DNA of 45,385 bases from Gracilibacter sp. (GTDB taxonomy: Bacteria > Bacillota > Desulfitobacteriia > Desulfitobacteriales > Syntrophobotulaceae), in contig JAGXFZ010000070.1 of assembly GCA_024637055.1 (NCBI GenBank), positions 1 through 45,385 on the forward strand. The letters run 5' to 3'. This document shows, one piece after another, positions 5,403-35,901 of this stretch. The notes below the pieces were generated by a model. The model saw nothing but the letters and a program-made list of their open reading frames with translations, was not told where the DNA came from and did not search any database. Made by a program: the position numbers and the translations under genes. Numbering within the stretch: position 1 is the stretch's first letter; each line of letters opens with the position of its first letter.

Positions 5403-5455
5403 CTTGCACACCCCTTTTTACCGAATACCATAGATTGTTACGGTACTTTTAATAT

Positions 5456-5559
5456 AAACTCCACCGCAGCATGCACGACAAGCGGAGCATGGAGGCGGAG
5501 CGCGGCAATTAACAACAGGATGTTGTTACTGCCGAATAGTGCTTGCTGCGGTGCAGTTT
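5456..5559. repeat. 104-bp MITE-like element with 21-bp terminal inverted repeats
   Basis: The left end AAACTCCACCGCAGCATGCAC and the right end, read inverted, match at 19 of 21 bases. The inside is GC-rich and includes a perfect hairpin TAACAACA-GGA-TGTTGTTA. About 50 bases of the right half, read on the minus strand, align with 18,027-18,073, including the hairpin. The element begins 15 bases after the pyk stop and fills most of the gap to deoR, so its hairpins could attenuate or terminate read-through. Confidence 0.8.
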
Positions 5560-5574
5560 CTCTCCCCAAAGTAC

Positions 5575-7302
5575 TTAAATCATGGTAACAGCGCCCTCAT
5601 AAACAACACCGGCCGAAGCATCAACTGTTATGACCGCACCTTCTTTGATCTGGTTGGTCGCCTCTTTGGCTCCAATTATAGTTGGAATACCGTATTCCAG
5701 AGCAATAATTGCAGCATGAGAAGTTAGTCCACCCCGTTCTACTACCAGAGCTCCAGCTTTGGCGATGACAGGTAACATATCAGCATCAGTTATGGAGGTA
5801 ACAAGAACACTGCCTTGCTTAAACTTGTTAATATCAGTTACTTTGGTAGCGGGTCCTGCATATGATTTTCTACCAATGCCGGTTCCTCTAGACAGTACAT
5901 TACCAACTACTTGGACTTTTATCATATTAGTAGTTCCCACTTGACCAACTGGTACTCCTGCGGTAAGGACTACGATATCACCAGTTTTGACAAAGTTATT
6001 ATCTAAGGCTTTGGTTACAGCGATAGAGAGTAGTTCGTCTGTTCCGGTACTCTCCTGGACTAGGATACAGTGTACTCCCCAATTAAGGGAGAGACTTCTA
6101 GCAATCTTTGCGTATGGGGTGGCAGCTACGATTAAAGCATTGGGTCTGTGACGAGATATCATCCTAGCAGTTACACCTGATTGGGTAGGAGTGATTATGG
6201 CTGCGGCACTCAAGTCGTCAGCTATGGTGTTGCAAGCGTAACCGATAGCTTCAGCTATGTTGGCGCCTTTTTTAGGTCCATGGTTAGTCTTGAAGAGGAT
6301 ACTTTCAGCTCTTCTGGCTATCTTATCCATGGTCTCGACCGCTTCTACAGGGAATTGTCCTGCTGCTGTTTCACCAGAAAGCATGATGGCATCAGTACCA
6401 TCAAGAATCGCATTAGCTACATCACTTGCCTCAGCTCTGGTTGGCCTTGGTTGACGAATCATAGAGTCTAGCATCTGAGTAGCTACGATTACAATTTTAC
6501 CCATGTTATTGCATTTTGTTACCATATCTTTTTGATGGATAGGAACTTCCTCAACAGGAATCTCAACACCAAGATCGCCACGGGCAACCATTATACCGTC
6601 TACGACTTCTAGAATACCATCTATATTGGTGAGTCCTTCTCGGTTCTCGATTTTGGCTATGATTTCTACTGAAGATCCTGCATCTTCTACAACCCTTCTT
6701 ACATCAAGAATATCTGATGCTTTACGGGTAAAGGAGGCTGCAATAAAATCAATATTATTTTTCAAACCGAATTTTATATCATCAATATCCTTTTGAGTAA
6801 GTGCAGGCAATTGGATGGAAACATTAGGTACGTTAACACCTTTTTTGGACTTTAAGATTCCCCCATTACGTATAATTGTGGAAATCTTACCCTCACTTAC
6901 AGATGTTACTTCCAGGTCCATCAGTCCATCATCTAAGAGGATATGCGTCCCGACCGAAACTTCACGCCAGAGATTGTTATAAGTGACATATACTCTTTGT
7001 GAAGAACCAGTTGTTTGATCGCTATCTAGGATGAATTCTTTACCATTTTCTAGCGTAACCCCTTCACCCGGAACCGTGCCTGTACGGATTTCCGGACCTT
7101 TAGTATCCAATAGAATTCCTAGATTATATCCATATTTTTCTGCAACTGCTTTGAGGTTCTTAATTCTGGCCCCATGTTCATCATAATCTCCATGAGAGAA
7201 ATTGAGCCTGGCTACGTTCATCCCGGCTTCCAGGAGCTGTTTGATTTTCTCCGGAGATTCTGAGGCAGGACCGATAGTACAAATAATTTTGGTTCTTCTC
7301 AT
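5575..7302 (-). CDS. pyk: Pyruvate kinase with C-terminal PEP-utilising (swivel) domain
   Basis: Converts PEP and ADP to pyruvate and ATP in the cytoplasm. The barrel starts with RTKIICTIGPAS and carries VARLNFSHG, DTKGPEIRTG, IAKIENREG, GIMVARGDLGVE and DAIMLSGETAAG, all landmark pyruvate kinase motifs. After the regulatory domain (about 355-470) comes an extra domain of roughly 100 residues with LTSHAAIIALEYGIP, the phosphohistidine-type swivel of PEP-utilising enzymes. This gives 575 residues, as in Bacillus and many Clostridia, against about 470 for the short form. The gene lies 24 bases downstream of gap and probably shares its transcript. Its stop lies 15 bases from the inverted-repeat element that separates it from deoR. 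Confidence 0.98.
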   Translation of the reverse strand: MRRTKIICTIGPASESPEKIKQLLEAGMNVARLNFSHGDYDEHGARIKNLKAVAEKYGYNLGILLDTKGPEIRTGTVPGEGVTLENGKEFILDSDQTTGSSQRVYVTYNNLWREVSVGTHILLDDGLMDLEVTSVSEGKISTIIRNGGILKSKKGVNVPNVSIQLPALTQKDIDDIKFGLKNNIDFIAASFTRKASDILDVRRVVEDAGSSVEIIAKIENREGLTNIDGILEVVDGIMVARGDLGVEIPVEEVPIHQKDMVTKCNNMGKIVIVATQMLDSMIRQPRPTRAEASDVANAILDGTDAIMLSGETAAGQFPVEAVETMDKIARRAESILFKTNHGPKKGANIAEAIGYACNTIADDLSAAAIITPTQSGVTARMISRHRPNALIVAATPYAKIARSLSLNWGVHCILVQESTGTDELLSIAVTKALDNNFVKTGDIVVLTAGVPVGQVGTTNMIKVQVVGNVLSRGTGIGRKSYAGPATKVTDINKFKQGSVLVTSITDADMLPVIAKAGALVVERGGLTSHAAIIALEYGIPTIIGAKEATNQIKEGAVITVDASAGVVYEGAVTMI

Positions 7303-16961: not shown

Positions 16962-17978
16962 TTAGGGGTTATCATTATTAATCTTTCGCCAGTAATAGTT
17001 AAATCCTTCTTCAATAGGTATTATCTGTAAATAAATATTTCCTGTTGGCGACAAGATAATGTTACCTTCAGGCAATTGATTTTGATTTATGATTCCCTCT
17101 GTAAACAAAATAGTGAGTTGTTGTTCATTTTCCTTATAGGGAATCTTGCCTTGCCATACATTTGTGAGAGTCCCACCGTCTTTTAAAGGGTCATAGCTAT
17201 ATAATTCTTGGAGATAACCCTTATCTACTCTCCCTATATAAATAGTATTATCTCTAGAACCCAGTAATATATCATTTGGATGATTTGATACAATCATTCT
17301 TTCTTGTCCATTAAGCAAGAATATGCTTTTGGAAAGATTATAACTACTTTCGACAAATAGATTACCGAGTTTATTAGAAACTGCGATGTTATGAATATTT
17401 TCCTGAGGGAGATTCAGCCAGTTAATCCCTTTCATAATATCCATTCTGATGAGATTTTCCTTCTGATTAGCATCTTCAAATAATACATAAAGATTATTCG
17501 TATACGTGGACATTTCAATATTGATTATATTCGCTATGGAGAAACTGAATTCTCGGTCTAGTTTTGGCTGGTACCCAGAAGAAGTCTGATCGTTAAAGTC
17601 TAAACTATAAAGGTAGGCCTTAGAAGGGTCAGCTTCGTTGCTAAAAAAAAGTAGGCTATTTCTATCAGGTAACCATTTATAATTGAGCAATTTAAATGAA
17701 GAATCGAGAACTATGCTACTGTCAAATACAGATTTATTTTGGTAAAGATCTATTACTTCAAGTTTATTATTGTTAATAAAACTAAGATACTTATTATTGT
17801 ATGATAACTGTAAGTTTTCAGCCTCAGCTATATCTATTTTCACTAGGTATTTGTGATCTATGGTTATGGATGAGTTCAAGAGCTTGCTTGATTTCCAATC
17901 TAAGAAAGCAAAGACCAAATACTGCGTGATAAAAGATAAGACTATTATTGATAAAATTATGATGGTTTTATTCTTCAA
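16962..17978 (-). CDS. Membrane-anchored, propeller-like extracytoplasmic protein of unknown function
   Basis: A hydrophobic N-terminus (residues 4-26) without a lipobox Cys suggests an uncleaved signal anchor. The remaining 310 residues are beta-rich with recurring hydrophobic-aromatic strands (YNNKYLSFINNNKLEVIDLY, KWLPDRNSLLFFS, NNLYVLFED), which resembles TolB/WD40-like propeller blades. I do not recognise the family. It is the gene downstream of the structured repeat at 18.0-18.3 kb and on the same strand as the glycosidase and ANTAR genes, but the repeat makes cotranscription uncertain. Confidence 0.75.
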   Translation of the reverse strand: MKNKTIIILSIIVLSFITQYLVFAFLDWKSSKLLNSSITIDHKYLVKIDIAEAENLQLSYNNKYLSFINNNKLEVIDLYQNKSVFDSSIVLDSSFKLLNYKWLPDRNSLLFFSNEADPSKAYLYSLDFNDQTSSGYQPKLDREFSFSIANIINIEMSTYTNNLYVLFEDANQKENLIRMDIMKGINWLNLPQENIHNIAVSNKLGNLFVESSYNLSKSIFLLNGQERMIVSNHPNDILLGSRDNTIYIGRVDKGYLQELYSYDPLKDGGTLTNVWQGKIPYKENEQQLTILFTEGIINQNQLPEGNIILSPTGNIYLQIIPIEEGFNYYWRKINNDNP

Positions 17979-18007
17979 TTGCTTTCCTTTCTGCGTATAA
18001 ATTATGG

Positions 18008-18290
18008 ATGTTAATGCAAGTGAGAGCTACACTGCAGCATGCACTTTTCGGCAATAGCGACCTCCTGTCGCAAAGTCCACGGATGGACAAATACCGCGGT
18101 GCCATGGATGGCAAGGAGCGGCCATCAGGTATTACCCTGAGGTTTGGCGCATTAGCGGAATCAGCAAGTGAACAGCTTCGGCGCGCGGTACGTTTATCTC
18201 CTGCGGAGATAAACGCCGAAGCCGCAAGCCACAAAGGATCACATAACGGCGCACGGTCGGGTAATGCACAGATATCTTAATATCTCTTCA
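18008..18290. repeat. 280-bp structured GC-rich repeat element
   Basis: This fills the 328-base gap between two minus-strand genes and is much more GC-rich than its surroundings. It is a chain of short hairpins: GCGAC-ctcct-GTCGC, GTCCA-cgga-TGGAC, TGCCA-tgga-TGGCA, and a strong compound stem CGTTTATCTCC-tgc-GGAGATAAACG (18191-18215) enclosed by CTTCGGCG/CGCCGAAG. Its left part matches the element at 5.5 kb; its right end (TGTGCATTACCCGACCG on the minus strand) is identical to part of the element at 35.8 kb. ORFs called here are on both strands and look accidental. It could be a composite non-autonomous mobile element or a structured RNA. Confidence 0.75.
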
Positions 18291-18306
18291 ATATGGCAAA
18301 AATTAG

Positions 18307-19263
18307 CTAGTTGCTCGGCATAACTACGAAGGAAGTTGGAATATACCGTTCACCATATATGTTCCACAAACTATTGATGACCTGCCCGTCATAGATCATC
18401 TCAGTCGAAGAGCCTCCATCGAGGTTGGCTGCATTGACAGCACCATATTCGATAAAGACGTTCATTAAGTCCCTTAGAGTTGCTCCCATACTCCAACTAG
18501 GCTGTCTGCCATCTATCACAACCAAGATAACTGTTCCATCAGCCTTTTGACCTATTCCTGTTCGAGGGGCAATTCCCCACCCCCCATTTCCATGGATTAG
18601 GGGTGTATTATCTATGATTAAATTAGGATTGAAAGTAACCGCATTTTGAATATGATTGGCATAAACTTGACTCGTGTCCATGGTTCCTAAAATCAATCTA
18701 TCTTCATTGTCAAAGCCAATGATATTGACCTTGGCGTCCTTAGAATTGTTATGAACAACTTTCCCATCTAGGACAGTAATTCCATCGGGGAACCCTCCAT
18801 TACCCTGGGCATTTGGATCATAAAATCCTCCTCCGTTTATGCCGGCGATTGCTTGATTGTCCAAAACCATCTCTGAAAGCCTTTGACCAGCTGTCCCTAT
18901 TTCTCTCGTGGCAGCAACTTTAATCTGACTGGGATCACTCACTAACATTACTTTACCTTTGAAGTACTTGCCCTGAATATTTTCTACCCTTAAGCCATTT
19001 TTATCATCAACAATAATACTTTCTTTCGTATGTATTACAGGTTCAACTATGATTGTATTATTATAAAGTTTTGTTATTTCATTAATCTTTTCTTGGGACA
19101 AGAAGAATTCTAACACCTGTGGATGTCGAGATGTCAGGATAGTACCAACAGTGACAAATTTCAATGATTGAAAAGGCCCATAGAAAATAATTAGCGGGGA
19201 AGAAATAAGAAAGAAAAGAAGATTGAATACTACGAAATAAAAGGCGACTCTCTTTTTACTCAT
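18307..19263 (-). CDS. Phosphodiester glycosidase (NAGPA/DUF2233) family exported protein
   Basis: One N-terminal membrane segment (about residues 7-28) anchors a NAGPA-type domain. Signatures are AGINGGGFYDPNAQGNGG with PDGITVLDG, GRQPSWSMGATLRDL and AANLDGGSSTEMIYDG, the conserved Gly/Asp core of this family, which removes sugar-phosphodiester caps and in bacteria acts on cell-envelope glycans. The start preferred is the ATG at 19263, which overlaps the stop of the ANTAR gene as TAATG, a translational coupling signal; the track start is 12 bases further up. Coupling to a putative RNA-binding regulator is unusual. Confidence 0.9.
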   Translation of the reverse strand: MSKKRVAFYFVVFNLLFFLISSPLIIFYGPFQSLKFVTVGTILTSRHPQVLEFFLSQEKINEITKLYNNTIIVEPVIHTKESIIVDDKNGLRVENIQGKYFKGKVMLVSDPSQIKVAATREIGTAGQRLSEMVLDNQAIAGINGGGFYDPNAQGNGGFPDGITVLDGKVVHNNSKDAKVNIIGFDNEDRLILGTMDTSQVYANHIQNAVTFNPNLIIDNTPLIHGNGGWGIAPRTGIGQKADGTVILVVIDGRQPSWSMGATLRDLMNVFIEYGAVNAANLDGGSSTEMIYDGQVINSLWNIYGERYIPTSFVVMPSN

Positions 19264-28200: not shown

Positions 28201-28228
28201 ATTGTAAGGAATCACAATTTAATATTCG

Positions 28229-28340
28229 TACTCTGGGGATGGGTGTAATTCCTTACCGGCGGTAAAGCCCGCGAGCCTTTTAGGCAGATTCGTTGAAACT
28301 ACGAAGCCGACAGTTAAAGTCTGGATGGGAAGAGTTATGA
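28229..28340 (+). ncRNA. FMN riboswitch (RFN element)
   Basis: Contains the invariant FMN aptamer blocks GGTGTAATTCC, TACCGGCGGTAAAG, AGCCCGCGAGC, GAAACTACGAAGCCGACAGT and GTCTGGATGGGAAGAG. P1 is formed by ACTCT (28230-28234) with AGAGT (28331-28335). The same 5' strand, TACTCTGGG (28229-28237), is also fully complementary to CCCAGAGTA (28413-28421), which is half of the terminator below. Ligand binding holds P1 and lets the terminator form; without FMN the antiterminator would form. Controls ribD-ribE-ribBA-ribH. Confidence 0.97.
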
Positions 28341-32592: not shown

Positions 32593-32691
32593 GTTAGCAC
32601 CTCCATCCATACTAGATAATTTCAGGATTTACAGAATCTCAACAATTTATTCATTCGTGTGAATTTCCGTAGTTTATTATTTGGGTGCCGG

Positions 32692-32869
32692 GTGTCACAG
32701 GGACGGGGTTATCGTCACGCTAGGTGTCACAGGGACGGGGTTATCGTCACGCTACACTCTTTGGATTATTCCCCTACTAATCCCTGTTAATCTCTGAGTG
32801 TCACAGGGACGGGGTTATCGTCACGCTACACTCTTTGGATTATTCCCCTACTAATCCCTGTTAATCTCT
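32692..32869. repeat. REP-like direct repeat cluster at the 3' end of the transposase gene
   Basis: GTGTCACAGGGACGGGGTTA plus TCGTCACGCTA occurs three times (32692-32722, 32724-32754, 32798-32828), identical in all copies. The 41 bases after copies 2 and 3 (CACTCTTTGGATTATTCCCC...) are also duplicated. The right-hand duplicate (32829-32869) is the coding end of the transposase, so a 74-bp unit has been tandemly repeated including the last 13 codons. Confidence 0.92.
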
Positions 32870-35794: not shown

Positions 35795-35885
35795 TAATAT
35801 TTGTGCATTACCCGACCGAGCGCCGAGATGTAATTCTTTGTGGTTTCTCTGCTCTAAGGTTCGCTAAGCAATGCACAAATATTTA
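35795..35885. repeat. 91-bp element with TAATATTTGTGCATT terminal inverted repeats
   Basis: Left end TAATATTTGTGCATT and right end AATGCACAAATATTTA are inverted repeats (one mismatch). The next bases (ACCCGACCG) and more of the interior (GCGCCG..ATGT) match the right end of the 18-kb element over some 50 bases, with 17 identical bases in a row (TGTGCATTACCCGACCG). It occupies the gap between the lipid kinase and HAD genes. Confidence 0.8.
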
Positions 35886-35901
35886 CATAAATTATCGTGA
35901 T

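Follow-up and report, generated by a model that had tools for sequence, protein, structure and literature searches.

Small interspersed repeats with a stable predicted fold are known from Streptococcus as BOX elements, which have the architecture boxA-boxBn-boxC, are enriched between convergent genes, contain an internal module of ~45–50 nt that is variable among strains and sometimes missing, can be inserted into one another and have an uncertain mobiliser (PMC3049150). The repeat family described here shares these traits and, compared by architecture alone with the account in PMC3049150, appears closest to the BOX elements. It belongs to another lineage, and differs in that its outer stem (P1) varies freely with compensation, its core carries GGA loops and an asymmetry among wobble pairs marks one strand. 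Being intergenic imperfect palindromes of ~105–170 nt in many copies, the repeats also resemble ERIC/IRU and MITE-like elements in architecture, although no target duplication was seen and their arms do not form a conserved terminal inverted repeat. With REPINs (PMC3116915) they share inverted doublets, compensatory changes along the hairpin and an intergenic position; they differ in the longer unit, the internal position of the conserved part and the lack of co-occurrence with Y1/RAYT genes.

The family is a new one of a known kind of repeat, namely mobile, modular and palindromic, with a single-strand fold under selection. Like other small interspersed palindromic repeats, it has dispersed intergenic copies of less than 200 nt, a stable fold, and presence or absence at orthologous sites. 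The reading that we favour, with a probability of roughly 75%, is that of one family of small, non-autonomous, mobile palindromic repeats whose conserved fold acts as a folded single strand and which are moved in trans. It is a well-supported bacterial interspersed repeat in which the fold, on one identifiable strand, is the conserved thing. Whether repeats of this sort have any effect is an old question, which this family makes directly testable.

The element and its two copies in the window

The window analysed is a stretch of 45,385 nt, contig C124 of a 2.58-Mb metagenome-assembled genome (MAG; G000) in 129 contigs that is 85% complete. An initial annotation had noticed a hairpin at 18,027–18,073 (+ strand) about three quarters of which matched 5,506–5,556 (minus strand), and a global alignment gives 37 identical columns out of 51 (73%). 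Two stem pairs do differ on both sides between the sites, GCGAC-CTCCT-GTCGC (18,057–18,071, +) against ACAAC-ATCCT-GTTGT (5.5 kb, minus). Both hairpins are pieces of one lineage-specific interspersed repeat family, previously unlisted, and the hairpin first noticed is the tip of an element of 105–170 nt.

The full unit is an imperfect palindrome in which the outer stem P1, of ~20 bp and with a sequence that differs from copy to copy, surrounds a conserved apical core. On the strand favoured by wobble pairs (see below), P1 encloses a core hairpin GC-GGA-GC-ANGGAX-GC-GGA-GC, a stem P2 (CGGCN/NGCCG) and a hairpin P3 with its loop. A long form contains an extra module of 47–51 nt with two further hairpins, which in the window genus is mostly in the opposite orientation. 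Nested half-units of the repeat are also seen in the window MAG, and the ends of the unit are not the same from lineage to lineage.

The 5.5-kb copy is a complete short-form element (5,447–5,566, + strand) that matches the covariance model with 124.5 bits and E = 8.2e-31, the copy itself being part of the model's alignment; by BLAST, dozens of other loci in the window MAG give 41–102% query matches to it. RNA folding of this interval places the P1 arms at 5,456–5,476 and 5,539–5,559 (both +), and P1 pairs of this kind all covary among copies. Between them lie the core hairpin GC-GGA-GC-ATGGAG-GC-GGA-GC with its ANGGAX loop (5,482–5,501, +), which is near-invariant in the copy alignment, and P2 (CGGCA/TGCCG) around P3 (5,503–5,534, +), identified from sequence and fold, in which P3 covaries. 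P3 is the hairpin of the initial annotation, reading AACAAC-AGGAT-GTTGTT on this strand. The locus as a whole folds as a far larger, near-perfect palindrome than the hairpin first noticed (141 nt, –56.1 kcal/mol, z = –5.2). It is located directly after a pyruvate kinase gene (5,575–7,302, minus strand), and on its other side precedes a gene for a DeoR-family regulator.

The copy at 18 kb, on the minus strand, is chimeric and truncated: it consists of a single P1 arm, P3 and the module, and is followed by a second repeat family. Its partial element (18,025–18,074), of which query positions 1–60 match many copies, comprises a lone P1 arm (18,025–18,044) and the P3 hairpin (18,057–18,071); no partner arm with fewer than 7 mismatches in 20 was found within 17,501–19,000. 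The module of the long form adjoins it, here 47 nt in length with two hairpins (18,075–18,121, minus), and is 94% identical over query positions 4–107 to contig C57 and others. The second family then occupies ~18,122–18,275 (+), with 88–89% identity over query positions 111–261 to contigs C110, C62 and C12. This second family is itself palindromic, with ends like ATATTTGTGCATTRC...GTAATGCACAAATAT, and recurs at 35,797–35,890, which shares 50 nt at 86% with 18,226–18,275; in the window MAG, similar ends border several of the main element's copies.

Distribution, mobility and placement

BLAST detected 59 matches to the 5.5-kb copy and 54 to the 18-kb copy in the window MAG, and a covariance model built from 30 copies of this MAG, the 5.5-kb copy included, detected at least 64. 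Several contigs of the MAG end at repeat copies, so that the true copy number is probably higher. The same search, which collected dozens of further sites in related genomes with E down to 3e-29, gave 12 matches in a congener and 39–69 in each of five genomes of another genus (g3). Carriers number 11 among the 25 genomes of the taxonomic family and 12 among the 74 of the order. Genus g3 appears to be, and the carrier group hence to include, the organohalide-respiring Dehalobacter; nothing on the main repeat family was found in the literature on Dehalobacter repeats or on CsrA with repeats. The exact core pattern is also found in Candidatus Dichloromethanomonas elyunquensis, in a Peptococcaceae MAG and in a MAG filed as Oscillospiraceae, while viral contigs contain no match to it. 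A search of Rfam with the main family returned only sub-threshold matches (best E 0.024).

One carrier, G068, is assigned to a different family within the order; it has 35 matches, whereas its congener G067 has none. Twenty of the G068 copies were read and are mostly near-identical with fairly sharp ends, suggesting recent multiplication. In the 3′ flank of the element at one G068 locus (L232), a 41-nt 3′ half-unit is repeated in tandem about three times.

Comparison of orthologous sites in g3 genomes revealed a copy (L195:12300) that is present in G013 and G003 and missing in G023, and another (L195:16483) that is present in G013 and G017 and missing in G003. At three orthologous g3 loci, strains that share a copy differ in whether that copy contains the module. 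The presence and absence, at the same locus, of both whole copies and the ~50-nt module indicate that the family is mobile and modular, and some of these differences could be deletions; one G017 locus retains the P1 arms only. No clear target-site duplication was seen at the orthologous loci or G068 copies compared, and none of the orthologous loci compared provided a clean, exactly bounded empty site. An origin of P1 as a captured gene terminator was rejected, since P1 falls into sequence subfamilies, empty sites lack P1 and no T-run follows it. At one shared intergenic place in related genomes (L195:5590 and its orthologues), unrelated P1 sequences are present, suggesting repeated insertion or replacement there.

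The copies are mostly intergenic. In G013, G003 and G000 pooled, with heuristically called ORFs, 19 lie between convergent genes and 4 between divergent genes, and the 3′-side neighbour is encoded on the opposite strand 77 times and on the same strand 34 times. Copies less than 600 nt apart are in divergent orientation in 25 of 27 cases, as in REP doublets, which could suggest a REP/REPIN-type element moved by an IS200-like Y1 (RAYT) transposase, all the more because a Y1 gene is present within the window. Against such an origin, which we consider very unlikely, the conserved part of the element is internal rather than a short terminal REP, no Y1 match was obtained in the element-rich genomes G013, G017 and G023, and Y1 is present in some genomes that carry no copy of the element. 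Carriers G002 and G004 likewise gave no match to Y1 (PF01797), and the link to Y1/RAYT was rejected on this pattern of presence and absence across carriers. No mobilising enzyme was found, nor any transposase that could be linked to the family; the favoured reading of non-autonomous repeats would have them moved in trans by a separate enzyme.

The IS200-like Y1 transposase gene of the window (PF01797; 32,826–33,602, minus strand) has direct repeats of 32 nt and 72 nt (GGTGTCACAGGGACGGGGTTATCGTCAC...) at its 3′ end (32,691–32,869), and looks like a RAYT gene with REP-like repeats of its own.

The conserved fold and its strand

The initial annotation had concluded from two copies that the fold is kept by compensatory change, and this holds over all copies for P1, P2 and P3. 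RNAalifold found changes on both sides in 20 of 34 pairs. In G013 alone, 95% of cells pair and 29 of 36 pairs show double changes; the covariation score is 0.653, compared with 0.155 for shuffled and at most 0.114 for slid controls, on an alignment fitted to the model, which favours this score, and several of the covariation counts likewise come from model-fitted alignments. A custom test similar to R-scape, in which substitutions were redistributed along a FastTree tree, was applied to 88 copies and 6786 column pairs with 100 nulls. With this tree-aware null, 22 pairs were significant (E < 0.05), and all 22 lie inside the proposed structure, where they make up 22 of its 36 pairs. Since the fold is conserved by compensation over all copies, the hairpin finding withstands the test by which the initial annotation said that it could fail.

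Chance likeness, or decaying relics under no selection, would fit the truncation of the 18-kb copy and the G017 locus reduced to P1 arms. Against this, the model matches dozens of copies with E-values to 1e-36, and covariation is found at those 22 pairs and nowhere else, which leaves this explanation with next to no weight.

Compensation could in principle arise from mutation only: at quasi-palindromes, template switching would rewrite one arm from the other, and a single-stranded fold would be under no selection. Among the double changes at orthologous loci (L111/L117 and L112/L115) are flips from A-T to T-A, which are awkward for stepwise RNA evolution. Such copying is strand-symmetric and predicts equal numbers of A·C and G·U cells, whereas in P1 the ratio of G·U to A·C is 30:1 for the window MAG, 68:15 for G013 and 77:14 for the others, or 175:30 overall; furthermore, the unpaired core bases and the loop GGA stay constant while the stems change. 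Template switching may contribute beside selection, and as the sole cause it is disfavoured and improbable.

The excess of G·U over A·C favours selection on just one of the strands over strand-symmetric arm copying. The G·U excess is present in both orientations relative to genes, and in 140 of 162 copies the wobble-favoured strand has the lower minimum free energy. A strand-biased mutation process could conceivably also lie behind the asymmetry. Replication strand as the source of the orientation was rejected, since single copies in G013 and G003 show no clear bias by half-chromosome.

At 5.5 kb the + strand is favoured by wobble pairs and at 18 kb the – strand, so that the selected fold is on the strand opposite to that folded in the initial annotation. 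The suggestion of a structured RNA or single-stranded DNA hairpin retains its substance, as the asymmetry points to a single-stranded molecule of either type, with the folded strand reversed. We infer that the element works in folded, single-stranded form and with one defined polarity; the active molecule would most likely be RNA, and a single-stranded DNA transposition intermediate is also possible. A pseudoknot between the AGGAG loop and the CTCCT of the module, in the long form of the window, was rejected because it is not conserved, the module being inverted in Dehalobacter-type genomes.

Loops resembling CsrA-binding sites

The conserved loops suggest that the folded strand may be read by a protein. 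The hexaloop ANGGAX is a high-affinity CsrA/RsmE motif, and RsmZ also has loops without N (PMC4005645). In 66 P3 hexaloops of Dehalobacter-type genomes, A is found in 62, followed by a free N, G in 64, G in 62, A in 63 and a free X; the loop stem is closed by C-G and its remaining pairs covary. In the window genus the P3 loop lacks N, being AGGAG, or AGGAT in the 5.5-kb copy, and the MAG filed as Oscillospiraceae has a loop of the same type, carried by stems that differ. The repeats have the look of small mobile elements and could be mimics of decoys of the regulator protein CsrA. If the strand is transcribed, its GGA hairpins could bind CsrA as CsrB and RsmZ do, either titrating CsrA in the manner of a decoy or putting neighbouring transcripts under CsrA control, which would be compatible with mobility. 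With up to four A(N)GGAX loops per copy, the mobile family would then spread predicted CsrA/RsmA-binding hairpins as a dispersed, self-amplifying sponge or docking site, and could seed sites for a global RNA regulator; both the binding and this consequence are tentative and rather unlikely.

The motif CANGGANG occurs 0.8–1.3 times per copy on the wobble-favoured strand, compared with 0–0.12 on the other strand and ~0.05 in shuffled sequences, and these counts are not independent since the copies share ancestry. Promoter-like sites are slightly commoner on the 5′ side (22 vs 8 copies, p = 0.003), and csrA is present in 23 of the 25 genomes of the family. On the other side, csrA is also present in genomes without the element, the extra module is inverted in the window genus, which places its GGA loops on the other strand, and the wobble-favoured strand is antisense to the 3′-side gene in 77 of 111 cases. 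Ten of the 12 carriers have csrA; the window MAG (85% complete) and G068 (91% complete, with many near-identical copies) gave no csrA match, which makes binding by CsrA a lead and not a result. The likeness to CsrB/RsmZ (PMC4005645) lies in hairpins whose stem is closed by C-G and whose loop is A(N)GGAX; the repeats differ in being dispersed mobile copies, putatively transcribed, instead of one or a few sRNA genes, and in the two carriers lacking a csrA match.

The two carriers rich in near-identical copies, G000 and G068, are the same two in which no csrA match was obtained, and as both genomes are incomplete the coincidence may be due to chance. Elsewhere in the window, an FMN riboswitch (28,225–28,340, +) is located upstream of a run of genes on the + strand.
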